Source of the DNA: Bacteroidota bacterium
Lineage (GTDB): Bacteria; Bacteroidota; Bacteroidia; Bacteroidales; ML635J-15
Assembly: GCA_029558535.1 (NCBI GenBank)
Contig: JAKQEK010000315.1
Location: forward strand, 1 to 64,000
Direction: 5' to 3'
Length of the DNA stretch: 64,000 bases
Below the pieces are notes generated by a model. That model was given only the letters and a program-made list of their open reading frames with translations, was not told where the DNA came from and did not search any database. The position numbers and the translations under genes were made by a program. Below are positions 45,289 to 63,684 of the stretch, in pieces (positions within the stretch are counted from its first letter, which is position 1; every line of letters starts with the position of its first letter).

Positions 45289-48200
45289 CTAAAATTCAAT
45301 GATTTCATTTAGTTTCTTGATAAGAATGTCACAGGTATTTGAGAAATAGTTTTCACAGGAGTCTTTTTCGGTTATTCCAAAACACAATTTGTATTCGGGA
45401 ACAGACGAAAGTGTTTCGACTATTTCATTCCAGACATCGTTTGCATTTGAGGACTGATTTACACCAAAAGCTTTGAATAATCCGGAGAATTGCTCGAGAT
45501 TATCTTTATTGCATCTTGGGTTCAGAGATTTTTCAAACTGCTGTATTACCTTTTGAGTATTAGTAAAACTACCACCTGTTTCATAATGGAAACTTGCAGG
45601 GATTACTAAATCGGCAGATTTTGCAGTATCAGTCATAAAGAAGTCCTGAACGACCATAAACTCACGATTAACAAACCATTTCTCAACTTCTGCTTTATTC
45701 TGTGCCTGTCCAATTGGGTCTTCCCCTAAAATTACAAAATGAGTAAAGCTTCCTGTTTTTATTTTATCGGTAATGCATGCCTCTGATGTTTTAACAGCAC
45801 CGGGCAAAAGATTTGGTCTGATACCCATATCAATTAACCCCTGAGAATTGTTCTTCTCTTTTATAGCAATTATTCCACTACCCGTTTTGCCTGTTTTACC
45901 TGTCAATAAAGAGAGATTGATTATTTCTTGAGCAGTTGCAGAAGAAACTTCTTTTTCTTGAAAAACTATTACAGCGTTTTGTTCGAGATTATAGCTCTCT
46001 GTGAAATTTTTCAAATTTTCAATGCTTTGTCCGCTAGATGAGGCTAGGACATTTAAATCGCAAGATGACAGATTGTTTTTGTATTCATCAAAACCATTAA
46101 CATTGCCATTTATGAAGAAGTTATTATTCCATGCATTATCAAGAACAATTTTATTCATTGATTTAACAAAGGCATAATAAGATTTAACCTTTATAATCTT
46201 ATTGCATTTATAGGCCATTTTGGCATTGTCCTTATCAGTTACCAGGATAACTTCCGTGCCTTTTCTGTATTTAGCGTTGAAAATCATGTGATTTACAAGA
46301 CTGTTATCATAATTCAGATCAGAGCCAAATATTATAATCTTTGAAGCCTCTTTTAAATCAGAAAAAGAGAGATTTTTATTTGAATTGTATAAATATCCCG
46401 GACCTCTGCCAATGTAATTCAGACTGCAAATATTATTGGTTCTTAAAACCTGTCTAACGAATTTTTGACTTAGATATAATTCTTCGTTAGTCATACGACC
46501 ACTTGCAGAAACCAAGGTTTTTTGCTCGTGTCCACTTAGTTTATTTTTAATTAGAGTAAAAGCCTCATCGAAACCAATTTCTTTCCATTGACCGTTTTGT
46601 TTCAGCATTGGTTTGGTAATTCTTTCCAGATTATTAAATAATCTATAACCAAATTTTGCATGTTTACCAATAGAAGCTTTTTGATTTACCATGCCAGGGA
46701 TTCCTTCAGCTCTAAAAACAAATCCTGATTTATGTAATAATTCTATTGCTGCACCTTCAGAACTAAAACAGTCAATAGTCTTAATTCTTTCCGGTTTTAA
46801 AGGCATAGTTTTGAAAGGGACATTTTCGACAATAGCACCTGTCGGACATATCGAGATACACATTCCGCATGATTCGCAATTTGTATCAGTAAGCCTTTTA
46901 TTCATACTGGGAGCTACAAATGTTTCAAATCCTCTGTTCACTAGACCAAGAGCTTTTGCTCCTACAACTTCGTTACAGACTCTAATACATTTAGCACAGA
47001 GAATACATTTATTATTATCAATTTCAATTAAAGGATGTGCAAAATCAATATCATATTGTTTAAACTCTCCGGCGTAATATTTCTGATCTGCACCATATTT
47101 ATCTGCAAATTGCTGTAATTCACAATCGAAAAATTCGGAACATCCACATTCAAAACATCTTGCTGCTTCTGTCTTTGCAATATTTTCGTCAGTATAACCC
47201 AATTCAACTTCTTTATAATTTACTCTGTCTTTAGGGTTAAGTACCGGCATTTCCTGACGGAATTGATTTTTATATCTTCCTAAATAGTCGTTTGGATCTT
47301 GATTCTTGAAATTGTCACGACGGCTAACAAAAGCTTTTTTTGGAGGTTCAACTTTTTGACCAGTAAGATATTGATGACAACTTAACCATGCTTTATTAGC
47401 CTGAGCAACGGCTTCGATAATTGTTGCGGGACCTGACACCCCATCGCCTGCTGCAAAAATTGACGGCACACCTGTTTGTAGGGTTTTTGAATCAGCATCA
47501 ATATCGCCATATTTATTTGCCTTTAGTTCTCCTTCTTTAACCACTGAATTTACATCATCAAGAAAATTGATATCTGTTTTTTGACCGATTGCTGCCAATA
47601 TATAATCGACTTCCAGATCAAATTCCGAACCTTCAACCTGTACCGGTCTGCGACGTCCTGAAGCATCAGGTTCGCCGAGTTCCATTTTTATTAAAGTTAC
47701 AGATTTTAATTTGCCTTCAGCATCTTTGTTTACTCTTACAGGATTGTGCAAAAACATATATTCTACACCTTCCAGTTTTGACTCATGTATTTCAATCGGA
47801 TTTGCAGGCATTTCTTTTTCGGTACGGCGATAAACCACCTTTACGTCAGTACTTCCGCATCTCAAAGCAGAACGACAACAGTCCATAGCCGTGTTTCCAC
47901 CACCAACAACAATTATTTTTTTACCTTTAAAATCATAACGTTGACCGGTTACCTCCATATTACGTAAGAAGTCAATCCCCGAGAAAACACCATCTGCATC
48001 TTCACCCTCTGCACCAATAAGAGTACCGCGTTGCGATCCTATCGTTAAAATTGTAGCATCATAATTTTTGTGGATTTCGGCATATTTTAAATTTTCGCCA
48101 AGCTTTTTGTTGTAAAAGATATTTACTCCTAAATCAGTAATACTTTTTACTTCGGCATCTACAATGTTGTTTGGGAGACGATATTCGGGGATTCCATATC

Positions 48201-48900
48201 TTAACCATCCTCCTGCATGAGGTTGTGCTTCAAAAATATCGCACTGATGCCCTTTAAGCTGAAGATAATATGCTGCGGTTAAACCTCCGGGACCGGCACC
48301 AATAATTGCTACTTTTTTACCAGTAGGAGCATCTTTTGGAGGGATAAATTTATTCTCTGATTTAAGATCATAATCAGCAGCAAAGCGCTTGAGATAATCA
48401 ACACCAACTCCTGATTCTCCTATATAATTACGTCTGCAAGCAGCTTCGCAAGGCCTTACGCAAACACGTCCGCAGATGGCAGGCAAAGGATTAACTTGTT
48501 TAATTAATGCTACAGCTTCAGAATATAATCCTTTTTCAATCAGAGAAATATAACCTTGTATGTCAACTCCTGCAGGACATGTTTCTTTACATGGACCAAC
48601 GCAATCAGCATAGTGATTACTCATTAAAAGATTTAATGCAGTCTGTCTGGCTTTTGTTATTTTTTCATTTTCCGTATGAATTATCATTCCTTCAGTTACA
48701 CGAGTAGAACATGAAGGTTGAGGTTTTTTAATTCCTTCAATCTCCACAACGCAAACGTAACATGAAGAATAAGGTTCCAGTCTGTCATCGTTGCAAAGTG
48801 TTGGAATAATAATACCTTCGCGTTTTGCAACCTGAAGTATATATTCGTTTTTATTTGCCTGAACCGGTTTTCCGTTTATTATTATATTGACTTTATCCAT
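45289..48900 (-). CDS. NuoG-like / GltD-like flavoprotein / degenerate molybdopterin fusion
   Basis: 1203 residues. A [2Fe-2S] domain uses Cys36, 47, 50 and 64. A His/Cys cluster motif follows at His96, Cys100, Cys104 and Cys108, then a Cys-rich GltD-type domain (NPLPAICGRVCVRPCEAACRR). Two nucleotide-binding folds (VAIIGAGPGGLTAAYYL, IIVVGGGNTAMDCC) form a glutamate-synthase-small-subunit-like flavoprotein. Two [4Fe-4S] motifs lie near residues 637-680 (CILCAKCIRVC, CESCGMCISICP). From about 720 the protein is a molybdopterin-oxidoreductase fold, but the usual N-terminal Cys cluster is lost (IDCFSSEGA). It should pass electrons between NAD(P)H and an unknown carrier. Confidence 0.85.
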   Translation of the reverse strand: MDKVNIIINGKPVQANKNEYILQVAKREGIIIPTLCNDDRLEPYSSCYVCVVEIEGIKKPQPSCSTRVTEGMIIHTENEKITKARQTALNLLMSNHYADCVGPCKETCPAGVDIQGYISLIEKGLYSEAVALIKQVNPLPAICGRVCVRPCEAACRRNYIGESGVGVDYLKRFAADYDLKSENKFIPPKDAPTGKKVAIIGAGPGGLTAAYYLQLKGHQCDIFEAQPHAGGWLRYGIPEYRLPNNIVDAEVKSITDLGVNIFYNKKLGENLKYAEIHKNYDATILTIGSQRGTLIGAEGEDADGVFSGIDFLRNMEVTGQRYDFKGKKIIVVGGGNTAMDCCRSALRCGSTDVKVVYRRTEKEMPANPIEIHESKLEGVEYMFLHNPVRVNKDAEGKLKSVTLIKMELGEPDASGRRRPVQVEGSEFDLEVDYILAAIGQKTDINFLDDVNSVVKEGELKANKYGDIDADSKTLQTGVPSIFAAGDGVSGPATIIEAVAQANKAWLSCHQYLTGQKVEPPKKAFVSRRDNFKNQDPNDYLGRYKNQFRQEMPVLNPKDRVNYKEVELGYTDENIAKTEAARCFECGCSEFFDCELQQFADKYGADQKYYAGEFKQYDIDFAHPLIEIDNNKCILCAKCIRVCNEVVGAKALGLVNRGFETFVAPSMNKRLTDTNCESCGMCISICPTGAIVENVPFKTMPLKPERIKTIDCFSSEGAAIELLHKSGFVFRAEGIPGMVNQKASIGKHAKFGYRLFNNLERITKPMLKQNGQWKEIGFDEAFTLIKNKLSGHEQKTLVSASGRMTNEELYLSQKFVRQVLRTNNICSLNYIGRGPGYLYNSNKNLSFSDLKEASKIIIFGSDLNYDNSLVNHMIFNAKYRKGTEVILVTDKDNAKMAYKCNKIIKVKSYYAFVKSMNKIVLDNAWNNNFFINGNVNGFDEYKNNLSSCDLNVLASSSGQSIENLKNFTESYNLEQNAVIVFQEKEVSSATAQEIINLSLLTGKTGKTGSGIIAIKEKNNSQGLIDMGIRPNLLPGAVKTSEACITDKIKTGSFTHFVILGEDPIGQAQNKAEVEKWFVNREFMVVQDFFMTDTAKSADLVIPASFHYETGGSFTNTQKVIQQFEKSLNPRCNKDNLEQFSGLFKAFGVNQSSNANDVWNEIVETLSSVPEYKLCFGITEKDSCENYFSNTCDILIKKLNEIIEF

Positions 48901-48912
48901 CTTTGTTGATTT

Positions 48913-50691
48913 TTAAGTTAGACTGATTGCTTCAAATTTACATTTTGAGAAACAAACACCACATTTTATACATTTATCCTGATCAATGAAATGTACCATT
49001 TTTCTTTCACCACTAATTGCTTGCGTAGGACAGTTTTTAGCACAGACTGTACATCCGGTACATTTATCTTCTATGACTGTATATGTTAGCAATGCCCGAC
49101 ATTTTTTTGCAGGGCATTTTTTGTCTCTTATGTGAGCCTCATATTCTTCTCTAAAATATTTTATAGTTGTCAGTACAGGATTTGGAGCTGTTTGACCTAG
49201 AGCACAAAGGGAATTGTCAATAATTTTGTATGAAAGTTCTTCTAATTTTTCAATATCCCCTTCTTCACCTTTACCCTCTGTTATTCTGGTTAAAATTTCT
49301 AACATTCTTTTTGTCCCGATGCGGCAGAATGTACATTTACCACATGATTCTTTTGCAGTAAAATCGAGGAAAAATTTTGCCATATCAACCATACATGTGG
49401 TTTCGTCCATAACAACCATACCTCCCGAACCCATAATTGCTCCGGTACTACTTAGAGAATCATAATCCACAATTGTATCGCCCATATAAGCAGGAATGCA
49501 ACCGCCTGAAGGACCGCCTAGCTGAACAGCTTTAAACTTTTTACCATTTTGAATTCCGCCACCAATTTTAAAAATAATATCGTTAATAGTTATTCCAAGG
49601 GGAACTTCAACCAGACCACCTCGACTTATTTTTCCTGTAACCGCAAAAACTTTTGTTCCGGCAGATTTAGGGGTTCCGTATTTTGCATAAGCTTCGGCTC
49701 CGTTATAAATTATCCATGGGATATTTGCAAAAGTTTCAACATTGTTGATGTTTGATGGTTTACGCCATAATCCTGATTCGGCAGGGAAAGGCGGTCTTTT
49801 ACGAGGCATACCTCTTTCGCCTTCAATCGAGGCCATTAATGCGGTTTCTTCACCACAAACAAATGCTCCGGCTCCTTCTTTAACATATATATCCAAATTG
49901 AAACCGGTAATTCCGCAAATATTATTACCTAGAAAACCTCTTTCTCTAGCTTGTGCAAGTGCAATATTCAAACGTTTTATTGCAAGCGGATATTCAGCCC
50001 GGCAATAAATCACACCCTGATTAGCTCCTATAGCATAGGCCCCAATAATCATTCCTTCAATTACTGAATGAGGGTCTCCTTCTAGAACAGAACGGTCCAT
50101 AAAAGCTCCGGGATCGCCCTCATCAGCATTACAGATAATAAATTTTTCTTCAGATTGATAATTATATGCAAACTGCCATTTCATTCCTGTTGAGAAACCT
50201 CCTCCCCCACGACCTCTTAAGCCTGAGTCTTTTACAGTTTTTATAATATCTTCTCTACTGATATTATTTTTGGCGATTTTCTTTAGTGCTTCATATCCGG
50301 TTCTGGCGATATATTCATTAATATCTTCAGGCTCAATATATCCACAGTTGCGTAATACTATTTTTACCTGTGATTCGAAAAAATCTTCTTCACCAGTCTT
50401 AAAAAGCTCACTTTTAACAACATAATTCTGAAGCGGATTTTTATTTAAGATATGTTCCTGTATCAATTCGGCAGCTTTATCCTCATTGATATTGCCATAA
50501 AGAAAAGAACCATTTTCGTCAATAATTTCGACAAGAGGCTCTTTATAGCACATGCCAATACAACTTGTTTTTTTAAGAATAAAATCCACATTGCCCATGT
50601 CTTTTATTGCCTGTAGTTTATTATAAACTTTAGAGGCACCGGCAGCAATTCCACAACTGCCTAAACCGACTATAACTTGAGTTTTGCTCAT
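48913..50691 (-). CDS. NuoF/HydB-like NADH-binding subunit with extra ferredoxin domain
   Basis: 592 residues. A thioredoxin-like domain at the start has Cys13, Cys44 and Cys48, but the first ligand of the usual [2Fe-2S] set is Gly9. The FMN/NADH core has GRGGGGFSTGMKWQFA and CNADEGDPGAFMDR. A [4Fe-4S] ligand set follows (ESCGKCTFCRIG plus a later Cys in SLCALGQ). The tail has two [4Fe-4S] motifs (CTGCTVCAKNCP, CIKCGVCFSKC). It oxidises or reduces NAD(H) in a soluble complex with the NuoE-like and 1203-residue proteins; 12 bases separate it from the latter. Confidence 0.92.
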   Translation of the reverse strand: MSKTQVIVGLGSCGIAAGASKVYNKLQAIKDMGNVDFILKKTSCIGMCYKEPLVEIIDENGSFLYGNINEDKAAELIQEHILNKNPLQNYVVKSELFKTGEEDFFESQVKIVLRNCGYIEPEDINEYIARTGYEALKKIAKNNISREDIIKTVKDSGLRGRGGGGFSTGMKWQFAYNYQSEEKFIICNADEGDPGAFMDRSVLEGDPHSVIEGMIIGAYAIGANQGVIYCRAEYPLAIKRLNIALAQARERGFLGNNICGITGFNLDIYVKEGAGAFVCGEETALMASIEGERGMPRKRPPFPAESGLWRKPSNINNVETFANIPWIIYNGAEAYAKYGTPKSAGTKVFAVTGKISRGGLVEVPLGITINDIIFKIGGGIQNGKKFKAVQLGGPSGGCIPAYMGDTIVDYDSLSSTGAIMGSGGMVVMDETTCMVDMAKFFLDFTAKESCGKCTFCRIGTKRMLEILTRITEGKGEEGDIEKLEELSYKIIDNSLCALGQTAPNPVLTTIKYFREEYEAHIRDKKCPAKKCRALLTYTVIEDKCTGCTVCAKNCPTQAISGERKMVHFIDQDKCIKCGVCFSKCKFEAISLT

Positions 50692-50694
50692 TAT

Positions 50695-51213
50695 TTATTG
50701 ATTTTCTTTGTTTTTGTATTCATTAATAATTTTTACCGCAGACTTGCCATTTAGCCTTCCAAAGACTTCATCTCCAATCATAATAACAGGAGCGAGAGAA
50801 CAACAGCCTAAACAAGCAACAGATTCTAGAGTAAACAATCCATCAGGAGTTGTCTCGCCATCATTGATTTCTAATGCTTCGGCTAGAGATTCTGTTAATT
50901 CGGTTGCATTTTGCACATGACAAGCGGTTCCGTGACAGACCTTTATAATATGTTTGCCAACCGGAGAAAGTCTAAATTGAGAATAAAATGTTGCAACTCC
51001 ATACATTTGACTTTTACTAATATCAAGTTCTTTTTCCAGTTTGTCAAAAACTGAATCCGGTAGATATCCATAAATTGATTGTGCACCTTGAAGTAAAGGA
51101 ATAATATTGCCCTTTTTACCACGATAAGAATTTATTTTTTCATCTAGCAAAGACAAGTCCACTTCTTTTTGTTCGGGGCGTTTTTTTTCCTGAAGAATTC
51201 TGTTAATACGCAT
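50695..51213 (-). CDS. NuoE/HydC-like [2Fe-2S] subunit
   Basis: 172 residues. The thioredoxin-like fold carries the [2Fe-2S] ligands in VCHGTACHVQN and VACLGCCSLAPV. It begins the three-gene operon, three bases before the NuoF-like gene. No other complex I genes (nuoA-D, H-N) are near, so the set is a soluble dehydrogenase module, not respiratory complex I. Confidence 0.93.
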   Translation of the reverse strand: MRINRILQEKKRPEQKEVDLSLLDEKINSYRGKKGNIIPLLQGAQSIYGYLPDSVFDKLEKELDISKSQMYGVATFYSQFRLSPVGKHIIKVCHGTACHVQNATELTESLAEALEINDGETTPDGLFTLESVACLGCCSLAPVIMIGDEVFGRLNGKSAVKIINEYKNKENQ

Positions 51214-51331: not shown

Positions 51332-52953
<1,622 letters not shown>

Positions 52954-55900
52954 ATGAAAGAAACCGATAAACTTAGTCGTATTCTTGCTGATAGCAAGGA
53001 AAGACTTAAAGAGTTGGCATGTATTAATACGGCCACTGCCATAATTAAAGAAAAAAAATCTATTGAAGAAACGTGCAAACATATTGCATTAATTTTGCCA
53101 CAGGCGTTTATGTTTCCCGAAAATGCTTTTGCCGAAATAAATTATAATAACAAAAAATATTTATCTTCAAATTTTGAAGAAACAGAGTGGAAATTGTGTC
53201 AGTCTTTCGAAACTATTGATGAAATAAATGGGGAGATAATAGTATATTATAATCAGAAATTTCCTAAATCTTATGAAGGTCCATTTCTAAAAGAAGAGAG
53301 AGACTTGCTAGTTAATATTTCGAATATTATTACGGGTTATATTAATAGTCAGATAGCTAAAAAAGTCATTAATGTTGAGTTCGAAGAAAAGAAACCATCA
53401 GAATCTCAAGTAATTTTCTCGCAGGATAGTCATAAATTAATGTCAAGATTTATAAGTAAGCAAAATTCTGACAGAGACATTTATCATGACCTTATGCCTT
53501 TTAAAGTGAAAGAGATTTTACTGGTGGCAAATTTGTACGATGCTTATATTATTGAAAAAGAAGGTAGATTTTTAGAGCATATACTTGGTGAGTATTATCA
53601 GCTAAATTTAAGTTCGACACCAAGGATTACAGGGATATCTGACAATTCAGATGCCTTGGAACTTTTAAAAAACAAACATTTTGATTTGGTAATAATAATG
53701 CTCGGAATTGATAAGAAAAATTCATTTGAACTAAGCCGACAGATAAAAGCTAATTTACCATACATCCCAGTATATATGCTTCTGAACAATAATAATGATA
53801 TAGCTATTTTTGAGGAAAAACCTACATTATTGGAAAATATTGACAAGCAATTTGTATGGAACGGAGATTCGAAGATATTTTTTACAATGATAAAGCATCT
53901 CGAAGATTTGATAAATGTAGAAAACGATACGAATATTGGGATGGTGCGTGTAATTTTATTGGTTGAAGATTCTGCGAAATATTATTCGAGATATTTACCG
54001 GTTTTATATCAGGTAATTTTGGAACAAACTAAAGACATTATCGAAGAAACTAATGTAGATGAATTATATAAAGTTTTAAAACTTCGTGCCAGACCTAAAA
54101 TTCTATTAGCCAGAACATATGAGGAAGCACTTTCAATATATGAGAAATATCGAGAATATCTTTTATGTGTAATTTCTGATGTCAGTTATCCAAAAGCAGG
54201 GGAAATGTGTAATGATGCCGGGATAAAACTTATTACATATATTAAAAAAGACAAATCAGACTTGCCGGTTGTTCTACAATCGTCCGATACAGAAAATGCA
54301 AAATATGCATATCAGTTAAATGCAAATTTCATAAATAAAAACTCGGAAACACTAGCACATGATATAAAAAGTTTTATCAGGCACTATCTCGGTTTTGGTA
54401 ATTTTATTTATAGAGATTCAGGTGGTAAACAATTGACAATAGCTAAAACATTGAGAGAGTTTGAGCAAATTTTGGAAGAAATTCCTGAAGAGTCGTTAAT
54501 TTATCACGGACAGAGAAATCATTTTTCGCAGTGGCTCATGGCCCGGGGAGAAATTCATATTGCCAGAAATATTCTGGTATATAAAACTACGGATTTTATA
54601 ACGGTTGAAGAATTCAGACAGTTCCTTATCAGAACAATAAACAGACATCGGAATGAGCAAAATAAAGGAAAAGTAATACCTTTTGAGGAGCAAGCTATTA
54701 CTGACGAAAAAAATATTGTTAGTTTAACATCGGGAGCAATGGGAGGAAAAGGTCGTGGGATAGCATTCATAAACACTTTGATTCACCAGTTCGAACTTAA
54801 TAAGCATTTCCCCGACATTAATATTACAACACCTAAAACGTCAATCATTGGAACAGATGAGTTTGATTATTTTATTGAAAGAAATAAATTAAGGGATATA
54901 ATTACCGAAGAGAAGAACTATGAAATCCTGAAAATAGCCTTTATTAATTCTGAATTATCATCAGGGTTAAAGAAAAGGCTTAAGATGTTATTACAAAAGA
55001 TCAATAATCCTTTAGCCATAAGATCATCCAGCCTATTCGAAGACTCACTTATGCAACCTTTTTCAGGGATATTTGCTACATATTTGTTACCAAATAATGA
55101 CCCTGATATAAACATTCGTCTTGAACAAATATTAAATGCAATAAAGTTGGTATATGCATCAATTTATTCAGATAGTGCTAGGACTTATTTTGAAGCGATA
55201 CATTATAAAATTGAAGAAGAAAAAATGGCAATAGTTGTTCAGGAGGTAGTTGGGAATAAATATGGGGATTATTTTTATCCTCATATTAGTGGTACAGCAC
55301 AATCACATAATTTTTATCCAGTGGCTCACATGAAACCTGAAGAGGGCTTTGCTGTGCTTGCAGTTGGTTTAGGCACATACGTGGTTGAAGGAGAGAGAAC
55401 TTTTAGATTTTCGCCAAAATATCCTACTATTGAAATAAACTCACAAAAAGATATTTATAAAAGCTCACAAGTAGAATTTTATGCTGTAAATCTTAACAAT
55501 CCTAATATTAATCTAATTGAAGGTGAAGATGCGGGACTTATCCGTCTGGATATTTCGACAGCAAAAGAGCATGGTACCATAAAGCATTGTGCTTCTATTT
55601 ATGATTTCGATAATGAAAGAATAGTTGCAGGTATTGATAGTGTCGGACCTATAGTTATTAATTTTGCGAATATTCTCTCATATAATTATATTCCTTTAGC
55701 GGAAACAATTTCAAAAATATTGGATGTAATAAAGGAAGCTATGGGTTCTCCGGTTGAGATTGAATTTGCGGTTGACCTTAATAAAGACGAAAATTCGAAA
55801 GCTTCTTTTTATCTTTTACAAATAAAACCTCTGGTAGGTAATGACGAGGACTTTAATATTGACCTTGAAAATATTAATTATTCAAAGGCGATTTTGTTTA

Positions 55901-56397
55901 CGGAAAAAAGTATGGGAAATGGACTAGTTGACAATATCACCGATATGGTTTATATTGATCCCGATGTTTTTGATAATTGCAAAACACAAGAAATTGCCAA
56001 AGAAGTTGAATATATGAACGATAAATTGATGAAGGCAAATAAAAAGTACGTATTAATTGGTCCGGGACGCTGGGGAACTCGAGATCCTTTTATAGGGATA
56101 CCTGTGGTATGGCCACAAATATGCAATGCAAAAATAATTGTTGAAACAAGCCTTCAGGATTTTCCTTTGGATGCTTCTCTCGGATCTCATTTTTTTCATA
56201 ACGTTACTTCTATGAATGTTGGCTATTTCACTGTTCAGCATAGTGGGTCAAATGATTTTATTAAATGGGATATTTTGAAAGGTCAACAAATTATTGAAGA
56301 TTTAAAATTTGTAAGGCATATCCAGTTTGAAAAGCCTCTTAATGTTATTATGGATGGAAAAAAGAGAATTGCAGTAATAAGTTTATATGATGAATAA
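52954..56397 (+). CDS. Sensor/receiver/ATP-grasp (PPDK_N-like) protein without phosphohistidine domain
   Basis: 1147 residues from the ATG at 52954. Residues 1-140 are a sensor-like domain shared with the proteins at 56397 and 61037. A degenerate receiver (about 181-310) has no phospho-acceptor Asp (VIIMLGIDKK). A second receiver (about 330-490) keeps the acidic site (LLVEDS), Asp409 (CVISDVSY) and a later Lys. From about 590 to 960 an ATP-grasp domain of the PEP-synthase/PPDK type is present (GGKGRGIAF, LAIRSSSLFEDS, FAVDLNKDE). The end (about 1030-1147, LIGPGRWGTRDPF, GSHFFHNVTS) is a separate module. No PEP-utiliser His motif is seen, so PEP synthesis is unlikely. Confidence 0.8.
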   Translation: MKETDKLSRILADSKERLKELACINTATAIIKEKKSIEETCKHIALILPQAFMFPENAFAEINYNNKKYLSSNFEETEWKLCQSFETIDEINGEIIVYYNQKFPKSYEGPFLKEERDLLVNISNIITGYINSQIAKKVINVEFEEKKPSESQVIFSQDSHKLMSRFISKQNSDRDIYHDLMPFKVKEILLVANLYDAYIIEKEGRFLEHILGEYYQLNLSSTPRITGISDNSDALELLKNKHFDLVIIMLGIDKKNSFELSRQIKANLPYIPVYMLLNNNNDIAIFEEKPTLLENIDKQFVWNGDSKIFFTMIKHLEDLINVENDTNIGMVRVILLVEDSAKYYSRYLPVLYQVILEQTKDIIEETNVDELYKVLKLRARPKILLARTYEEALSIYEKYREYLLCVISDVSYPKAGEMCNDAGIKLITYIKKDKSDLPVVLQSSDTENAKYAYQLNANFINKNSETLAHDIKSFIRHYLGFGNFIYRDSGGKQLTIAKTLREFEQILEEIPEESLIYHGQRNHFSQWLMARGEIHIARNILVYKTTDFITVEEFRQFLIRTINRHRNEQNKGKVIPFEEQAITDEKNIVSLTSGAMGGKGRGIAFINTLIHQFELNKHFPDINITTPKTSIIGTDEFDYFIERNKLRDIITEEKNYEILKIAFINSELSSGLKKRLKMLLQKINNPLAIRSSSLFEDSLMQPFSGIFATYLLPNNDPDINIRLEQILNAIKLVYASIYSDSARTYFEAIHYKIEEEKMAIVVQEVVGNKYGDYFYPHISGTAQSHNFYPVAHMKPEEGFAVLAVGLGTYVVEGERTFRFSPKYPTIEINSQKDIYKSSQVEFYAVNLNNPNINLIEGEDAGLIRLDISTAKEHGTIKHCASIYDFDNERIVAGIDSVGPIVINFANILSYNYIPLAETISKILDVIKEAMGSPVEIEFAVDLNKDENSKASFYLLQIKPLVGNDEDFNIDLENINYSKAILFTEKSMGNGLVDNITDMVYIDPDVFDNCKTQEIAKEVEYMNDKLMKANKKYVLIGPGRWGTRDPFIGIPVVWPQICNAKIIVETSLQDFPLDASLGSHFFHNVTSMNVGYFTVQHSGSNDFIKWDILKGQQIIEDLKFVRHIQFEKPLNVIMDGKKRIAVISLYDE

Positions 56398-57167
56398 TGG
56401 ACGAAAAGAATCAGCTAAAAGAAAGAGAAAAAGAGCTTAACTGTTTGTATCAGACGGATCGGTTGTTGTCCGAAGAAAACGATTTATATAAATTGTTAAA
56501 TGAATTATGTAAAATTATTGCTGATGCATTTTTATACCCCCAATTAACTAGAGTAAAAATAAGATATTTTGAATTGATCGTTTGTTCGCCATATTTCTAT
56601 GTTCAAAAAGATAATATTAGGACAAATATTTTAGAAAACGGAAAAGAAGTTGGAGAGATAATTGTTTATTATTCTTCAGATTCGGGAGACACAATATTTA
56701 CATTTTTACCTGAAGAAAAGAAACTCCTTGAGTCAGTCGGGAAAAGGCTTTCGGATTATTTTTCGATAAGAAGTACATCCTGCTTTCTCGCCAAAGACAG
56801 GAAAAATATTTTTACTCTTGTTAGACTTGAGATTTGTAACAATGCGGTAAATACTATGAGATATAGTAATTTTGGGATAAAGAATATATATCTAATCGGA
56901 TCTGTTAAAAATTATATTGCAGGAATAAGCAGCGATATTGATTTAATTATACATTTTGACGGACTAAAAGAAAATGCCGAAAAAATTAAGATTTGGTTCG
57001 AAGCATGGTCTGCCTGTATTCTGTCGGATTCGAAATATGAGAATGAGATAAAACATGTAAATAATCTTTTTGATATTCATCTGATTACCGATCAAGACAT
57101 TGTACAAAAAAACAGTTATGCTGTCATGATAGATTCCCTGTATAACAATGCTAAATTAATTAAATAA
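56397..57167 (+). CDS. Sensor domain fused to a minimal nucleotidyltransferase
   Basis: 256 residues. Residues 1-130 repeat the sensor-like domain of the preceding protein (REKELNCLYQTDRLL, GEIIVYYSS, FLPEEKKLL, LSDYFSIR). The C-terminal half is a polymerase-beta-type nucleotidyltransferase with IYLIGSVKNYIAGISSDIDL; Ser-Asp-Ile-Asp gives the metal-binding DxD. It may nucleotidylate a protein or ligand. The gene overlaps the upstream stop by one base (TAATG). Confidence 0.75.
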   Translation: MDEKNQLKEREKELNCLYQTDRLLSEENDLYKLLNELCKIIADAFLYPQLTRVKIRYFELIVCSPYFYVQKDNIRTNILENGKEVGEIIVYYSSDSGDTIFTFLPEEKKLLESVGKRLSDYFSIRSTSCFLAKDRKNIFTLVRLEICNNAVNTMRYSNFGIKNIYLIGSVKNYIAGISSDIDLIIHFDGLKENAEKIKIWFEAWSACILSDSKYENEIKHVNNLFDIHLITDQDIVQKNSYAVMIDSLYNNAKLIK

Positions 57168-57174
57168 ATCTGAT

Positions 57175-58023
57175 ATGTGTAAGGCGGTTCATACAAGTGA
57201 TTTGCATGGTAAAAAAGAAATATATGGTAAGCTTTTTACTTATATTAAAAATGAAGTCCCTGACATAGTATTTTTAGGCGGAGATCTATATCCTTCTTTT
57301 AGAGATATGCAAAATCAAAATGATGACTTTTTTGAAGATTTTTTAGTACCGAATTTCACAAATTTGAAACAGGAGCTGAAAGATAAATATCCGATTATTT
57401 GTATTATTTTAGGTAATGACGATCCTGCACCAGAGGAGAAGAAGTTCAAAAAGCCCGAATATTGCAATCTTTGGAATTATATAAATTGTGGAAAGTTAAA
57501 ATATAAGAAATACACAATTTATGGTTATTCATATATCCCTCCAACTCCGTTCTTATATAAAGACTGGGAATTATATGACGTTTCAAGATATGTTGATCCG
57601 GGATGTGTTCATCCGACTGAAGGAATAAGGAGCATTGACCCTGGAAGAGATATTGATTTTGCATCAATTAAAAAGGACCTGGAAGACCTTACAGCAAATC
57701 AAAACTTGGAAAATGCCATCTTTCTTTTTCATTCTCCACCATACAAGACAAATTTAGACAGAGCAGCACTAGACAATAAATTTGTAGATTACATTCCATT
57801 AGATGTTAATGTGGGGAGTATAGCCATCAAGGAATTAATTGAATCTCGACAGCCATTACTAACATTACATGGGCACATACACGAATCTACCACATTAACC
57901 GGACATTGGAAAGAAATTATTGGAAAGACATATTGCTTTAATGCTGCAACAGAACTAAAAGCCTTGTCAATAATTGAATTCGATCTGGATAATTTTAATA
58001 ATGCAATAAGAAAAATATATTAA
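57175..58023 (+). CDS. Calcineurin-like metallophosphoesterase
   Basis: 282 residues. The five metal-ligand motifs are visible: SDLHGKKEI (Asp9, His11), GGDLYPS, LGNDDPAP (Asn-Asp), LFHSPPY and LHGHIHES. It hydrolyses a phosphoester or phosphodiester, and it lies between the nucleotidyltransferase (7-base gap) and the second ATP-grasp gene (1-base gap). It could reverse the modification made by the nucleotidyltransferase; this is inference. Confidence 0.85.
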   Translation: MCKAVHTSDLHGKKEIYGKLFTYIKNEVPDIVFLGGDLYPSFRDMQNQNDDFFEDFLVPNFTNLKQELKDKYPIICIILGNDDPAPEEKKFKKPEYCNLWNYINCGKLKYKKYTIYGYSYIPPTPFLYKDWELYDVSRYVDPGCVHPTEGIRSIDPGRDIDFASIKKDLEDLTANQNLENAIFLFHSPPYKTNLDRAALDNKFVDYIPLDVNVGSIAIKELIESRQPLLTLHGHIHESTTLTGHWKEIIGKTYCFNAATELKALSIIEFDLDNFNNAIRKIY

Positions 58024-58024
58024 T

Positions 58025-61012
58025 ATGGAATCATCACCAACGCTTAACCAGGATTTATATGAGTTTAACGAAATAAACTTTCAGGATACTGAATTTGATC
58101 AGTTGATGAAAAAGCGTATTCTCAAAGTTCTATTGATATGTAACAATTATGATAATTTTATGCTTGAGGAGGATGGAAGAATTGATGAGCAAATTTTTAA
58201 TGAGTACATGACTTTGGGCTTACGTTATCCTCCAATGTTTATTAGAGTAGATTCTGTAGAAAAAGCTTTTTTACAATTGAGAAATAAAGACATTGACTTG
58301 GTAATAACCATGTTAAATATTGTTGATGCCAATGCATTTGATTTATCAAAAAAAATAAAAAGCAAATACAAAAAAATTCCTATAGTTGTTTTAACCCCCT
58401 TTTCTCGTGAAATATCCGAAAAAATTGCTAGGGAAGATTTAAGTGCCATTGATTATGTTTTTTGCTGGTTAGGAAATCCGGATATACTTCTTGCGATAAT
58501 AAAACTTATTGAAGATAAAATGAATGCCCCAAAGGACGTCCTTAATATTGGAGTCCAGGCAGTAATTCTTGTTGAGGACAGTATAAGATACTACTCGAGC
58601 ATTTTACCAATTTTATATAAAATATTTTTCATTCAATCAAAACAGGCATCTCTAGAAGGGGTTAACGATCATCAGCAAAACCTTAGAATGAGGGGGCGTC
58701 CGAAAATCCTTCTTGCAACTAATTATAATCAGGCTATGGCTCTGTTCGAAAAATACAGAGAAAATGTCCTGGGGGTTTTTTCGGATGTTAGATACAAAAT
58801 TGGAAATCATACAGACGGTATTGCTGGGATAAAACTATGCAAACAGATTAAAGAAATTGATGCAAATATTCCAATGCTGTTGCTTTCATCGGAATTTAAA
58901 AACAAAGTTTTAGCAGATGAAATTGGGATTGACTTTTTAGGTAAGTATTCTAAAAACTTTTCATTTGAACTGAGAAATTTTAGCATTAAAAATCTACATT
59001 TGGGTAGTTTTCAGTTTTATTGTCCGGAAAAGAATAAGGTGGTATTTACTGCACCAAATCTTAAATCTTTTCAGGAATATATATTAAAAATATCTCCTGC
59101 TTGTTTAGAGTATCATGTTAAGAGAAATCATATTACCAAATGGCTCAATTCACGTTCACTATTTATTCTTGCTCGTAGATTCAAACATTTGACAATAGAT
59201 CATTTTGACAGTATTGAAGATATGAGACAGTTCATATATCATTCAATATCTTATTATAGGTCAAATTCGGGTAGGGGAGTTATTGCAAAATTTACTCAAA
59301 ACACATTTGATAATTATTCGGTTTTTTCAAGAATTGGTGACGGCTATATTGGAGGGAAAGCTCGTGGATTAGCTTTCTTAGACTTGCTGATTAAAAAGTA
59401 TAAACTTAGGCATAAGTACAAAAATGTTAAAATAATGATTCCCAGATCAGTAATCTTATGTACTGATATATTTGACGAATTTATCGAATCGCATAGATTA
59501 TATGAAGTGGGAATATCAAATTTATGTGATGATGAGATTTTAAAGCGTTTTGTTGAGGCTCAATTGCCAAACAGAATTTTTACAAGTTTATACTCATTCA
59601 TTTCATACACAGACAGTCCTATTGCTATAAGATCTTCGAGCAGATTAGAGGATTCTCACTATCAACCTTTTGCGGGGGTTTATTCAACTTATATGATTCC
59701 AAATATTCCTGACGATAAACATTTAACAATAAAATTACTAACAGAGGCTATTAAGAGTGTTTATGCTTCGGTCTTTTTTCGTGACTCAAAAGCCTATATG
59801 ACTGCGACATCAAATGTAATTGATGAAGAGAAAATGGGTGTTGTTTTGCAGGATGTATGCGGTAACACATTTGGAGACAGGTTCTATCCTACCTTTTCCG
59901 GTGTTGCAAGATCAATCAATTTTTATCCCGTATATCCCGAAAAGGCAGATGAAGGAATTGTTGACGTAGCATTGGGTTTAGGGAAGTTAATAGTTGACGG
60001 AGGAAAAACATTGAGATTTTCTCCAAAATATCCGTCAAAGATATTACAATTGTCCAGTCCCGAATCAGCATTAAGAGATACTCAAAAGGAATTTTATGCT
60101 CTTAATTTGGATCCAAAGAAATTTGTACCATCTATTAACGAAGATGTAAATATCGTTAAATTACGAATAAGTGATGCGGAAAATGACGGTGTACTTAAAT
60201 ATGTAGGGTCAACTTATGATTTTGAAAACAACGTTATTAGAGATGGTACAATGTATGATGGAATGAAAATCATAAGTTTTGCAAACATCCTTAAACATAA
60301 TACTTTCCCACTAGGCGAAATTATCAATGATATTATGGAAATAGGGAAGAAGGAGATGAATAATCATATAGAAGTTGAGTTTGCCGTTAATTTTCCAAAA
60401 AACAGTAAAGAGGAGGTTGTGTTTTATTTACTTCAAATAAGACCGGTGATAGAAACTGAACAGGATTCAGGGGTGAGTATATCACAAATCTCTGAGGAAG
60501 AAGTCGTTTTATATTCCGAATCAGCACTGGGGAATGGAATTTTTAAAAATATAAAGGATATCATTTATGTTAAGCCCGAAAAGTTTTCTTCAATTAATAA
60601 CATGAAAATTGTGGACAAAATAGATGCTTTAAATAATCAGTTGTCGAAAGAAAACAGAAATTTTATCTTAATTGGCCCGGGGCGTTGGGGTTCTTCTGAT
60701 AATGCTCTTGGAATTCCGGTTAAATGGTCGAATATTTCGGGGGCGAGAGTTATTGTGGAATCAGGACTTTCAGAATATCGTATTGACCCAAGTCAGGGGA
60801 CACATTTCTTCCATAACTTAACATCATTTAGAGTTGCATATTTTACAATAAATTCATTTATTAAAGAAGGGATTTATGATGTTAATTATCTTAACGAATT
60901 GGATGCGATTTATGAAGATGAATATATCCGTCATGTTAGATTTAATAATGATTTACGAGTTGAGGTTGACGGCAAAACAGGACGTGGAGTAGTATATAAA
61001 ACTTGTAAATAA
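58025..61012 (+). CDS. Receiver/ATP-grasp (PPDK_N-like) paralogue
   Basis: 995 residues, paralogous to the 52954 product but without its N-terminal sensor domain. A degenerate receiver (about 30-160, VITMLNIVDAN) is followed by a second receiver (about 175-330, LVEDS, Asp254 in VFSDVRY, Lys in FLGKYS). The ATP-grasp part spans about 435-810 (GGKARGLAF, IAIRSSSRLEDS). The shared terminal module (LIGPGRWGSSDNALG, GTHFFHNLTS) starts near 880. Again no phosphohistidine domain is visible. This family is often annotated as PEP synthase in Bacteroidota, which the missing catalytic His does not support. Confidence 0.8.
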   Translation: MESSPTLNQDLYEFNEINFQDTEFDQLMKKRILKVLLICNNYDNFMLEEDGRIDEQIFNEYMTLGLRYPPMFIRVDSVEKAFLQLRNKDIDLVITMLNIVDANAFDLSKKIKSKYKKIPIVVLTPFSREISEKIAREDLSAIDYVFCWLGNPDILLAIIKLIEDKMNAPKDVLNIGVQAVILVEDSIRYYSSILPILYKIFFIQSKQASLEGVNDHQQNLRMRGRPKILLATNYNQAMALFEKYRENVLGVFSDVRYKIGNHTDGIAGIKLCKQIKEIDANIPMLLLSSEFKNKVLADEIGIDFLGKYSKNFSFELRNFSIKNLHLGSFQFYCPEKNKVVFTAPNLKSFQEYILKISPACLEYHVKRNHITKWLNSRSLFILARRFKHLTIDHFDSIEDMRQFIYHSISYYRSNSGRGVIAKFTQNTFDNYSVFSRIGDGYIGGKARGLAFLDLLIKKYKLRHKYKNVKIMIPRSVILCTDIFDEFIESHRLYEVGISNLCDDEILKRFVEAQLPNRIFTSLYSFISYTDSPIAIRSSSRLEDSHYQPFAGVYSTYMIPNIPDDKHLTIKLLTEAIKSVYASVFFRDSKAYMTATSNVIDEEKMGVVLQDVCGNTFGDRFYPTFSGVARSINFYPVYPEKADEGIVDVALGLGKLIVDGGKTLRFSPKYPSKILQLSSPESALRDTQKEFYALNLDPKKFVPSINEDVNIVKLRISDAENDGVLKYVGSTYDFENNVIRDGTMYDGMKIISFANILKHNTFPLGEIINDIMEIGKKEMNNHIEVEFAVNFPKNSKEEVVFYLLQIRPVIETEQDSGVSISQISEEEVVLYSESALGNGIFKNIKDIIYVKPEKFSSINNMKIVDKIDALNNQLSKENRNFILIGPGRWGSSDNALGIPVKWSNISGARVIVESGLSEYRIDPSQGTHFFHNLTSFRVAYFTINSFIKEGIYDVNYLNELDAIYEDEYIRHVRFNNDLRVEVDGKTGRGVVYKTCK

Positions 61013-61018
61013 AAAGAC

Positions 61019-61037
61019 AAGTTCTAATAAAGAACTT
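61019..61037. terminator. Short hairpin between convergent genes
   Basis: AAGTTCT at 61019-61025 with AGAACTT at 61031-61037, loop of 5. It lies in the 24-base gap between the ATP-grasp operon and the Crp/Fnr gene. Confidence 0.45.
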
Positions 61038-62155
61038 TATCCCAGATTGCTTAAAGTTCTTAAAGTGTCAAAATTAATTATTTCAATCGTTTTGTTATTT
61101 ATAGAAATAATATTATCCCGCTTTAAATCAGATAGGATTCTAACTAGATTTTCTGTTGCTAATCCCGAAAATTCCGCAATTTCTTTACGCGATATGGATG
61201 TGTTTAATACATTACTTTGAAAAACTTTCGACGACAAATATAAAAGTGAATCACAAACCCTTCCAATAGCTTGTTTATTTGCAACACTACCAAGTTTGTC
61301 ATATACATTTTGTAATGATTTGGAATAAATCTTCATTATTTCAACACTAAATACAGGATTTGATCTTATTATGTTATCAAAGACTGATCTTTCGACCAGC
61401 AATACTTTTGACGTAATCAAAGCCTGACAACTGAAATGATAATAATTGTCGCCGTATAAACTTGATAAACCTATAATATTAAAAGGTTTTGTAAACTTAA
61501 AAATATGATTTTTATAATGTGTGTTTTCTACGAAAGCTTTTACCATTCCTTCCTTAAGAATCATAATAAAAGAAGCAAAAGAGCCTTGTTTACAAATGGT
61601 TTCTCCTTTTTTAAATTCAATCTGAACTTTTGTTATAGTGTCAATATCACTATTGGATAAACCCAATCCTTTTAAATAGTTTACAAACGTTTGTTCGTTT
61701 CGGCTTTGCTTAATTTTTCCATCCAGACTTTGAGCATAAAATTCTTTTAATTTGCGAAAAGAAAAATATTGATTTATTTTTTCAACTATCGTCGAAAATA
61801 ATCTGATTTCTTCTTGAAGGAATACCCCTTTTTCTGCTCGGACAGGCTTAATATAACACAGTATTATTTCACCTACTCTCAACTCGTCTGTATATAAATC
61901 CGATTTTAATTTTAATTCGGTATTTTTAAAGTTTTCTGTAGAAACTTCAATGTCCGAAACAATAATGCTTACCTTACATATATCCGAATATCTCCAACCC
62001 GCAGGAATGATGTTTGTTATTTTGCTTAGCACCTTTTCCAAATCGGAGTCGAAATCTTTTAAAATTTCATCAAGTTGGTAAAGACATTCCAACTCTTTCT
62101 TTCTTTCGTTAAGGTTTTTAATGATTACATTAATATCTTCATTGTCATCCTGCAT
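61037..62155 (-). CDS. Crp/Fnr-family regulator with shared N-terminal sensor domain
   Basis: 372 residues from the ATG at 62155; the longer frame to 62176 uses TTG and overlaps the promoter. Residues 1-130 repeat the sensor-like domain of the 52954 and 56397 proteins (ERKKELECLYQLDEIL, GEIILCY, FLQEEIRLF, INQYFSFR). A cyclic-nucleotide-type effector domain follows (FKKGETICKQGSFASFIMIL), then a helix-turn-helix (TSISRKEIAEFSGLATENLVRILSDL). It has no Fe-S Cys set of classic Fnr. It is divergent from the NAD-type glutamate dehydrogenase gene and likely controls it and itself. Confidence 0.85.
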   Translation of the reverse strand: MQDDNEDINVIIKNLNERKKELECLYQLDEILKDFDSDLEKVLSKITNIIPAGWRYSDICKVSIIVSDIEVSTENFKNTELKLKSDLYTDELRVGEIILCYIKPVRAEKGVFLQEEIRLFSTIVEKINQYFSFRKLKEFYAQSLDGKIKQSRNEQTFVNYLKGLGLSNSDIDTITKVQIEFKKGETICKQGSFASFIMILKEGMVKAFVENTHYKNHIFKFTKPFNIIGLSSLYGDNYYHFSCQALITSKVLLVERSVFDNIIRSNPVFSVEIMKIYSKSLQNVYDKLGSVANKQAIGRVCDSLLYLSSKVFQSNVLNTSISRKEIAEFSGLATENLVRILSDLKRDNIISINNKTIEIINFDTLRTLSNLG

Positions 62156-62173
62156 CGTCAAAATGATTTGTGC

Positions 62174-62203
62174 CAAAATTAAAAAAAATCAACAAACAAA
62201 CAA
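62174..62203 (-). promoter_or_regulatory. Predicted promoter of the Crp/Fnr gene
   Basis: On the minus strand TTG (62203-62201), 19 bases, then TAATTTTG (62181-62174), a full match to the Bacteroidota consensus. The predicted transcript starts near 62167, just before the ATG at 62155. Confidence 0.6.
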
Positions 62204-62349: not shown

Positions 62350-63684
62350 ATGAATGTAGAAAAATTGATGAACGACCTGGAAAAAAGACACCCGGGAGAA
62401 GTTGAGTACCTTCAGGCAGTAAGAGAAGTTTTAGAAACCATTGAAGATGTGTATAACGAAAATCCACAGTATGAAGCAAATGGTATTATCGAAAGATTAA
62501 TTGAGCCTGACAGAATTTTAACTTTTAAAGTTCCATGGACTGATGATAATGGAAAAGTTCATGTTAATTTGGGTTATCGTGTTCAATTTAACGGAGCAAT
62601 AGGACCTTACAAGGGCGGTTTAAGATTTCACCCAAGTGTAAATCTTTCTATTCTTAAATTCTTAGGTTTTGAGCAGATTTTCAAAAATTCACTAACATCA
62701 TTACCAATGGGTGGTGGAAAAGGTGGTTCTGATTTTAATGCTAAAGGAAGATCTGACAGAGAAATTATGCGTTTCTGTCAATCATTTATGTTAGAATTGT
62801 GGAAAATCATAGGTCCTGAAACTGACGTTCCTGCAGGGGATATCGGTGTTGGTGGAAAAGAAATAGGTTTCTTATTTGGAATGTATAAAAAACTTGCATG
62901 TGAGCATACAGGTGTATTAACAGGTAAAGGACTGAAATGGGGTGGTTCTTTGGTTCGTCCAGAAGCTACCGGTTTTGGTAACGTATATTTTGCTCAGGAA
63001 ATGCTTGCTACTAAAGGTGAAACCTTCCAAGGAAAAACTGTTGTGGTTTCAGGTTTCGGTAATGTAGCTTGGGGTGCGGTTAGAAAAGTTACTGAATTAG
63101 GTGGAAAAGTTGTTGCGATTTCCGGTCCGGATGGTTATGTATATGATAAAGACGGTATTTCTGGAAAGAAAATTGATTATATGCTTCAATTAAGAGCTAC
63201 AAACGAAGATATAGTAAAACCATATTCTTATGAATTTGGAGCAGAATTTCATCAGGGCAAAAGACCTTGGGAAGTTAAATGCGATGTAGCTTTACCATGT
63301 GCTACACAAAATGAATTAGGTAAAGAAGATGCATTAACTCTTGTTAAAAACGGTTGTATTTGTGTTTGCGAAGGCGCTAACATGCCTTGTACACCTGAAG
63401 CAATAGAGGTTATCCAGGAACATAAAATATTATTCGCACCAGGTAAAGCGGCTAACGCAGGTGGTGTAGCAACATCAGGGCTCGAAATGTCTCAAAACTC
63501 AATGAAATTATCATGGTCAGCTAAAGAAGTTGATGAAAAACTTCATGGCATTATGAAAAACATCCACGAAGCTTGCGTAAAATACGGCAAGGATGCTTCA
63601 GGATATGTTAATTATGTTAAAGGTGCCAATATTGCAGGGTTCTTAAAAGTTGCCGATGCAATGGTAGATCAAGGTATTATCTAG
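62350..63684 (+). CDS. gdh: NAD-type glutamate dehydrogenase
   Basis: 444 residues, paralogous to the 51332 product. The catalytic core ([22 protein letters not shown]) is intact. The coenzyme region reads SGFGNVAWGAVRKVTELGG and SGPDGYVYDKDGI, matching the NAD-dependent enzyme of Clostridium rather than the NADP-dependent E. coli enzyme. This points to glutamate oxidation, or dual use of coenzymes. It is divergent from the Crp/Fnr gene across a region holding the Fnr-type palindrome. A terminator follows at 63741-63765. Confidence 0.93.
   Translation: MNVEKLMNDLEKRHPGEVEYLQAVREVLETIEDVYNENPQYEANGIIERLIEPDRILTFKVPWTDDNGKVHVNLGYRVQFNGAIGPYKGGLRFHPSVNLSILKFLGFEQIFKNSLTSLPMGGGKGGSDFNAKGRSDREIMRFCQSFMLELWKIIGPETDVPAGDIGVGGKEIGFLFGMYKKLACEHTGVLTGKGLKWGGSLVRPEATGFGNVYFAQEMLATKGETFQGKTVVVSGFGNVAWGAVRKVTELGGKVVAISGPDGYVYDKDGISGKKIDYMLQLRATNEDIVKPYSYEFGAEFHQGKRPWEVKCDVALPCATQNELGKEDALTLVKNGCICVCEGANMPCTPEAIEVIQEHKILFAPGKAANAGGVATSGLEMSQNSMKLSWSAKEVDEKLHGIMKNIHEACVKYGKDASGYVNYVKGANIAGFLKVADAMVDQGII

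Follow-up and report, generated by a model that had tools for sequence, protein, structure and literature searches.

Receiver/ATP-grasp genes linked to glutamate dehydrogenase in Bacteroidota: a probable undescribed control system

Background

Glutamate dehydrogenase (GDH) interconverts 2-oxoglutarate plus ammonia and glutamate, while glutamine synthetase is under nucleotidylation control by GlnD and GlnE. Here we describe a four-gene operon located in a 64,000-nucleotide stretch of DNA (the window; contig JAKQEK010000315.1 of assembly GCA_029558535.1, from a Bacteroidota bacterium of the order Bacteroidales). It encodes two large receiver/ATP-grasp proteins, A and B, and between them a nucleotidyltransferase (NTase) protein, NT, and a metallophosphoesterase, MPE. 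The operon is flanked by two GDH genes, GDH1 beside A and GDH2 past the gene of a CRP/FNR-type regulator. The link of A/B-type genes to GDH genes is strong, and the related gene sets probably form an undescribed GDH control system. Its core is a GDH-linked receiver/ATP-grasp family with a C-terminal module matching no known fold, to which the NTase and the phosphoesterase are linked accessories.

As in the GlnD/GlnE system, a Pol-beta-type NTase is associated in the window with an enzyme of ammonia assimilation and with one that may reverse its action. It differs in that a minimal NTase is joined to a sensor-like domain, the possible reversal enzyme is a metallophosphoesterase, the enzyme is GDH, and ATP-grasp proteins are central. 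PPDK, phosphoenolpyruvate (PEP) synthase and rifampin phosphotransferase share with A and B the ATP-grasp fold and the GGK, RSSxxED, (E/D)(I/V)EFA and QxRP motifs, but neither a phosphohistidine nor a PEP/pyruvate domain was found in A and B, which carry receivers in front and an unmatched C-terminal module. The adenylyltransferase MntA of type VII toxin-antitoxin systems is also a minimal NTase, and NT matched its profile weakly (E 0.043, 13.7 bits); however, this lies far under the 60-bit cut-off, and no HEPN domain was found by Pfam in the four operon genes.

A 1996 title by Baggio and Morrison reportedly concerns one or more genes, downstream of gdhA in Bacteroides thetaiotaomicron, with an effect in trans on GDH activity; B might be such a gene. 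B resembles them in lying near a GDH gene, as it is within three open reading frames (ORFs) of GDH in 15 of 20 mapped Bacteroides-group loci. AMPylation of mammalian GLUD1 by SelO lowers GDH activity (PMC12375108), a precedent for the nucleotidylation of a GDH. SelO is an unrelated enzyme, and the setting is the mammalian mitochondrion. No description of a system of A, NT, MPE and B was found among the matches listed by searches of the open-access literature.

Linkage to glutamate dehydrogenase genes

Of 156 loci with A/B-type genes, 84 have a GDH gene no more than three ORFs away (23/38, 33/80, 13/18 and, for the Bacteroides group, 15/20); the loci are related by descent and not independent. 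Among ORFs more than three ORFs away in the 80-locus scan described below, only 1 of 347 was a GDH, and from this per-ORF background approximately 2% of loci would be expected to show a GDH among six neighbours. The sets of loci were chosen by matches to A, B, NT or MPE and none by GDH; some genomes gave two loci, the window itself is included, and many contigs end near the A/B-type genes. Left out of the tally were L110, L112 and L116, which have no A or B, as well as L241 and L243; L130 and L222 each entered it a single time.

A scan of a named genome collection was limited to the best 80 of 574 confirmed matches, picked solely by similarity to B, and 32 of these loci had a GDH no more than three ORFs from the A/B block (32 here and 33 in the tally above, the counting rules differing). 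For loci with three ORFs on both sides, the count was 19 of 44. Named genomes with GDH beside B include those of Lutibacter oceani, Phocaeicola coprophilus and a Delongbacteria metagenome-assembled genome. The gdhA gene of Parabacteroides distasonis diverges from one recorded as encoding a 'PEP/pyruvate-binding domain-containing protein', with a second GDH four genes on. That label in the public record is uninformative, and GDH as a likely partner would make the protein a directly testable regulator.

B was found in 57 of 60 genomes of the Bacteroides bouchesdurhonensis genus (that of genome G277), and 20 of these 57 make up the Bacteroides-group set. In the loci mapped from this set, B and the GDH beside it lie on opposite strands. 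Locus L244 has the order malic enzyme-like gene, GDH, catalase-family gene, B, GDH; BT_1971 of B. thetaiotaomicron is given as a catalase in PMC12596196 and PMC4595636. Across all loci the order and orientation of GDH vary, with divergent, convergent and co-directional arrangements.

Two further kinds of neighbour recur. In 9 of 80 loci, a pair of genes of the 2-oxoacid:ferredoxin oxidoreductase type is found immediately upstream of either the A-B block or B; the alpha/beta pair at L144:1369-4232 was named by profile, and the loci with B only among the nine are L152 and L180. A PAS histidine kinase is located between two GDH-B pairs in L129 (9673-12425) and L132 (9322-11397), together with a LuxR-type response regulator, shown by profile in L132, and these two proteins are candidate inputs to the receivers of B.

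Pairing of A with GDH1 and of B with GDH2

The two large proteins differed in the type of GDH beside them. Among GDHs near A, 17 of 18 were of the GDH1 type and one of the GDH2 type, while near B 61 of 73 were of the GDH2 type and 12 of the GDH1 type (Fisher 7e-10, for loci that are not independent). Of these 12 exceptions, six belong to loci flanked on either side by a GDH, and the other six to genomes from outside the order.

Co-occurrence was also compared across 49 genomes from 49 other families of the order, using identity cut-offs of 71% and 67%, with p-values that are descriptive because the sets were typed by hand and the genomes are related. The presence of A was associated with that of GDH1 (18/7/3/21, p 3.4e-5) and the presence of B with that of GDH2 (31/4/3/11, p 1.2e-5), whereas the cross-pairs were not associated (A with GDH2, p 0.76; B with GDH1, p 1.0). 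A protein of genome G244, 29% A-like, was excluded from the A set. The association of A with GDH1 was stable at every cut-off tried. Support from presence and absence is thus firm for A and GDH1, but depends on the identity cut-off for B and GDH2. The pairing suggests that GDH is the partner of these proteins.

Shared neighbourhood could also arise if A and B were metabolic ATP-grasp ligases or kinases for a small molecule derived from glutamate or 2-oxoglutarate, with GDH a mere pathway neighbour, the C-terminal module binding the substrate and the receivers giving allosteric control. PPDK_N relatives with small-molecule substrates (5hv1 and 9goj) are among the top fold matches, and 2-oxoacid oxidoreductase and hydrogenase/NuoE-like genes (the hydrogenase labels are our own) are present in part of the loci. 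However, receivers, a sensor-like domain, an NTase and a phosphoesterase look regulatory, and a shared pathway product does not predict GDH1-type genes near A and mostly GDH2-type genes near B. We consider this explanation unlikely, but the most probable of the alternatives to control of GDH.

Architecture of A and B

The features of the operon are collected in Table 1. An earlier note on the window, made from the letters alone, had described four genes on one strand with gaps of -1, 7 and 1 bases in the order A-NT-MPE-B, and the ORFs of the window agree with this. Gene A starts at an ATG, while the mechanical ORF begins earlier, with TTG at 52891.

Table 1. Coordinates of the operon, its domains and the flanking genes in the window
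Feature	Position	Strand	Basis or remark
GDH1, NADP-specific glutamate dehydrogenase, divergent from A	51332..52663	-	NCBIfam PRK09414, 766 bits against a cut-off of 536
Gene A, 1147 aa: sensor-like domain, pseudo-receiver, receiver, DUF5752-like stretch, PPDK_N ATP-grasp, C-terminal module	52954..56397	+	
A, N-terminal sensor-like domain, also present in NT and the CRP-type regulator	52954..53388	+	
A, second receiver; E338, D339, D409, S443 and K462 invariant in 17 homologues	53944..54378	+	Boundaries approximate
A, PPDK_N ATP-grasp; QxRP Arg replaced by Lys (QIKP)	54739..55848	+	Pfam, alignment
A, C-terminal module; GPGRWG, SxGSHFF	55849..56394	+	Boundary approximate
Gene NT: sensor-like domain and minimal nucleotidyltransferase (GSVKNY...SSDIDL, FDIH)	56397..57167	+	
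Gene MPE: calcineurin-type metallophosphoesterase	57175..58023	+	
Gene B, 995 aa: pseudo-receiver, receiver, PPDK_N ATP-grasp, C-terminal module	58025..61012	+	
B, second receiver; E184, D254, S288 and K307 invariant, D185 nearly so, in 22 homologues	58547..58984	+	Boundaries approximate
B, PPDK_N ATP-grasp; GGK, RSSSxxED, E(I/V)EFA, QIRP	59345..60499	+	Pfam, model, alignment
B, C-terminal module; GRWGS, SQGTHFF; no known fold matched	60455..61009	+	
CRP/FNR-type regulator, same N-terminal sensor-like domain, convergent to B	61037..62176	-	
GDH2, second glutamate dehydrogenase	62350..63684	+	NCBIfam PRK14030, 809 bits against a cut-off of 743

A and B are paralogues, 37% identical to each other. 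Pfam placed Response_reg and PPDK_N in both (PPDK_N at residues 596-965 of A, E 2.7e-38, and at 441-825 of B, E 1.6e-33), and in A also DUF5752 with 24 bits against a cut-off of 23. The second receiver of each protein has the acidic pair, phosphoacceptor Asp, Ser/Thr and Lys characteristic of response-regulator receivers, while by eye the first receiver of each has no acceptor Asp. A predicted model of residues 425-995 of B (mean pLDDT 85) matched the folds of rifampin phosphotransferase 5hv1 (E 1.8e-13), HpeI 9goj and PPDK 1kbl, and the ATP-grasp fold and catalytic residues are retained in both proteins, except for the Lys of A at the QxRP Arg. As an observation apart, variants of A of approximately 1400 aa, with seemingly repeated N-terminal sensor-like domains, are found at L126:6837-11075 and L139:6397-10590.

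The name PEP synthase does not fit A or B, since their best scores to the PEP-synthase NCBIfam equivalog, 46.8 and 47.5 bits respectively, are far under its cut-off of 883. Pfam gave no match to the PEP-utiliser domain PF00391 in either protein at E<=1, nor in 22 B-type proteins, for which the limit was E<=0.1; a fused relative and a short one, searched at E<=0.01, had none either. In place of a C-terminal PEP/pyruvate TIM barrel, for which there was no Pfam match, a module of approximately 185 residues ends the protein. A and B have an ATP-grasp architecture with an unassigned domain where the phosphohistidine domain would sit. The reading of both proteins as receivers joined to a PPDK-type ATP-grasp and a common C-terminal module, in which the phosphohistidine motif was not seen and the usual label fails, had been proposed in the earlier note and is borne out by these profile searches and alignments.

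The module is kept in A, in B, in a short form of 572-600 residues and in the fused proteins described below, with the motifs GRWG[ST] and SxG[ST]HFF common to all of them. A model of the module alone was confident (pLDDT 89, pTM 0.88), but had no confident match among PDB folds (best E 5.8e-3, TM 0.27). Structure-based alignments comprised 77 rows, namely the window and 76 of 97 fragments. No Pfam match recurred in these 77 modules, the few hits being limited to one or two members each (best E 0.016), and the PDB held no sequence relative (best E 0.45).

An improbable alternative is that A and B are dikinases after all, and that the phosphohistidine is either supplied in trans by another protein, in the manner of split dikinases, or is the invariant His927 (B numbering) of the module. 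This residue is present in all 77 modules and lies 121 residues past the QxRP Arg, close to the equivalent spacing in PPDK, which we take to be 118, and HpeI, an ATP-binding chain of 387 residues, is both a fold and a profile match. A phosphohistidine domain in disguise is nevertheless poorly compatible with the searches, as PF00391 was not found in the 77 modules at E<=1 and the confidently modelled module had no confident PDB fold match, no recurring Pfam match and no relative among PDB sequences; it stays among the rivals.

NT, MPE and the sensor-like domain

In NT, Pfam placed NTP_transf_2 just under its cut-off (19.9 against 21 bits), and the C-terminal part of the protein aligns with the NTase domains of relatives. 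The Pol-beta-type motif, GS...DxD with a third acidic residue, is present in NT and in 15 of 19 proteins of the fused type. MPE matched Metallophos (E 3.5e-10) and has the calcineurin-like metal site (DxH, GD, GN, H, GHxH); its motifs SDxHG, GGD, GNDD, HxPPY and HGHxHES were retained in 11 of 11 aligned sequences. The sensor-like domain of approximately 130 residues is similar between NT and A (E 2.1e-5) and between NT and the CRP-type regulator (E 4.8e-13). A weak Pfam match to GAF was found in 3 of 10 members (best E 0.0052), and profile matches in the PDB were to fragments only. An anti-phage defence system was considered and rejected: PADLOC gave no full-length system match, only weak partial ones to PDC-S09 (NT, 23.7 bits) and PDC-S10 (MPE, 33.1 bits), and no match for A or B.

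Of 80 genomes, the window's own included, 59 had an A/B-type match, nine had MPE and six had an NT comprising both of its domains, which in one case (G209) carries an internal stop; only the first candidates per genome were scored, and an absence may be a miss. All four genes were adjacent in four genomes, those of the window (G000), G209, G221 and G260, the last belonging to another family, and thus not in the window's genome alone. MPE was directly beside A, B or NT in seven of its nine genomes; in G224 it is three ORFs from A and in G232 it stands alone. Stop codons interrupt both NT and B in G209 (L103:8583-13201), from assembly error or decay.

A wider set of 198 genomes from across the phylum contained an A/B-type match in 34 and MPE in 10, all 10 among those 34, and in each of the 10 MPE adjoins an A, B, NT or fused gene. 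Nine of the 10 belong to another class than the window, and there MPE borders a fused protein of approximately 1060 aa with the order sensor-like domain, ATP-grasp, C-terminal module, NTase; the NT of the window matches its two ends. Typically the order in this class is a GDH-like gene (428 aa), a short ATP-grasp gene (approximately 580 aa), the fused gene, and MPE on the opposite strand. MPE was the next ORF in 10 of 19 loci of the fused type, and GDH was within three ORFs in 15 of 19. Since NT and MPE are uncommon, they are accessory and not core.

These neighbourhoods support the claim of the earlier note that an NTase and a phosphoesterase belong with the ATP-grasp proteins. The note had also paired the two as forward and reverse enzymes, for which the support is their linkage, and this pairing stays conjectural. 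Neither of the findings that would have spoken against the note was made: no phosphohistidine domain came up by profile, and the four genes are neighbours beyond this genome.

NT and MPE could instead make and destroy a diffusible nucleotide that is read by the CRP-type regulator, apart from A and B. The sensor-like domain is common to NT, the regulator and A, MPE is of the calcineurin type, as are class III cyclic nucleotide phosphodiesterases, and five other mapped loci (L104, L105, L107, L108 and L127) have a CRP-type gene in the vicinity of B. However, by eye the regulator has no Glu/Arg pair of the kind presumably usual in a cAMP pocket, neither the 19 fused-type loci nor the three other four-gene loci had an ORF labelled as CRP-type, and the NTase is fused to an ATP-grasp in most of the fused-type loci. 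We give this explanation little credence.

Proposed control of glutamate dehydrogenase

The receivers, the sensor-like domain and the histidine kinase of L129 and L132 point to signalling, and the neighbours of the 2-oxoacid oxidoreductase and hydrogenase/NuoE-like types point to the glutamate/2-oxoglutarate node. On the basis of the pairing and the neighbourhood, our proposal is that A governs the activity of GDH1 and B that of GDH2, with NT and MPE adding a reversible nucleotide layer. That the operon is a signalling system dedicated to GDH, A serving GDH1 and B serving GDH2, is in our judgement slightly better than an even bet. The signalling character that the earlier note saw in this operon is upheld by the receivers, the sensor-like domain and the linked NTase and phosphoesterase. 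It had suggested that the ATP-grasp activity may act on a receiver domain or a partner protein, and it missed the linkage by which GDH becomes the leading candidate target, ahead of a receiver domain or another partner.

What the sequences show is the gene content, the conserved motifs, the linkage and co-occurrence with GDH genes, the fusion of NTase to ATP-grasp and the linkage of MPE, whereas GDH as the substrate, a covalent effect and the directions in which NT and MPE act are inferred. Phosphorelay or ligand input would reach the intact second receiver of A and B and the sensor-like domain of A, NT and the CRP-type regulator, and would gate the ATP-grasp site, which may use ATP to activate a group or to transfer one. 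The C-terminal module, where Arg, Asp, Glu and His residues are invariant, would replace the phosphohistidine domain and present the acceptor, most likely the cognate GDH, whose activity the modification would set. NT may attach a nucleotide, either to GDH itself or to A/B, and MPE may take it off again, a second reversible layer whose logic resembles the control of glutamine synthetase by GlnE and GlnD. In its fullest form, this would be a bicyclic covalent control of GDH that is widespread among Bacteroidota, in which receiver-gated ATP-grasp enzymes each modify their own GDH paralogue, a sensor-NTase and MPE add and remove a nucleotide, and the acceptor domain is of a new type; that whole scheme is tentative, and we would not expect all of it to hold. 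If it were true, GDH and not glutamine synthetase would be the covalently regulated ammonia valve in these bacteria.

Several observations weigh against a system dedicated to GDH. Linkage is no proof that GDH is the substrate, and among the four-gene loci only the window has an adjacent GDH, with none in L102, L103 and L115. B is without a nearby GDH in 5 of the 20 Bacteroides-group loci, including those of the type of B. timonensis and B. muris, and named Bacteroides timonensis and B. muris have no GDH near B. In the 49 genomes, the association of B with GDH2 moved with the cut-off (p 1.1e-3 at 70% and 2.4e-2 at 74%) and A was weakly associated with GDH2 at 74% (p 4.2e-2), while over all 80 genomes, at the cut-offs of 71% and 67%, both cross-pairs were weakly associated (A with GDH2, p 0.021; B with GDH1, p 0.057). 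At the same cut-offs, 12 of 36 genomes with A have no GDH1-type hit of at least 200 aa, and 6 of 47 with B have no GDH2-type hit. The ATP-grasp of A has Lys at the usually conserved QxRP Arg, a position which we take to be important in PPDK. Of the 19 fused-type proteins, 4 have a degenerate NTase motif or none, and MPE and full-length NT are rare.

The least credible explanation, that A and B stay beside GDH merely through slow genome rearrangement, would suit loci that share descent and cross-pairs that are not always null, but the order and orientation of GDH vary between loci, which argues for repeated re-association, and the co-occurrence of A with GDH1 holds at all cut-offs.

Other neighbouring genes

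Genes like those for HydA, HydB and NuoE of hydrogenases adjoin GDH1 at positions 45289-51213 of the window. These labels are our own, and on the maps HydA, HydB, NuoE and CRP were assigned by similarity to ORFs of the window. Similar genes occur near GDH and A or B in L106, L111, L126, L137 and L181, and some genes off in L222. L148 has an ORF resembling the beta subunit of the 2-oxoacid oxidoreductase, which is not adjacent.

In L104, a 285-aa protein with no Pfam match at E<=0.01 is encoded between B and the CRP-type regulator (11279-12133), and L107 has a 268-aa ORF at the same place. A gene of approximately 703 aa, by its look a prolyl oligopeptidase, lies between GDH and B at L189:5515-7626 and L194:5772-7886, and genes similar to it were located near B in 9 of the 20 Bacteroides-group loci.

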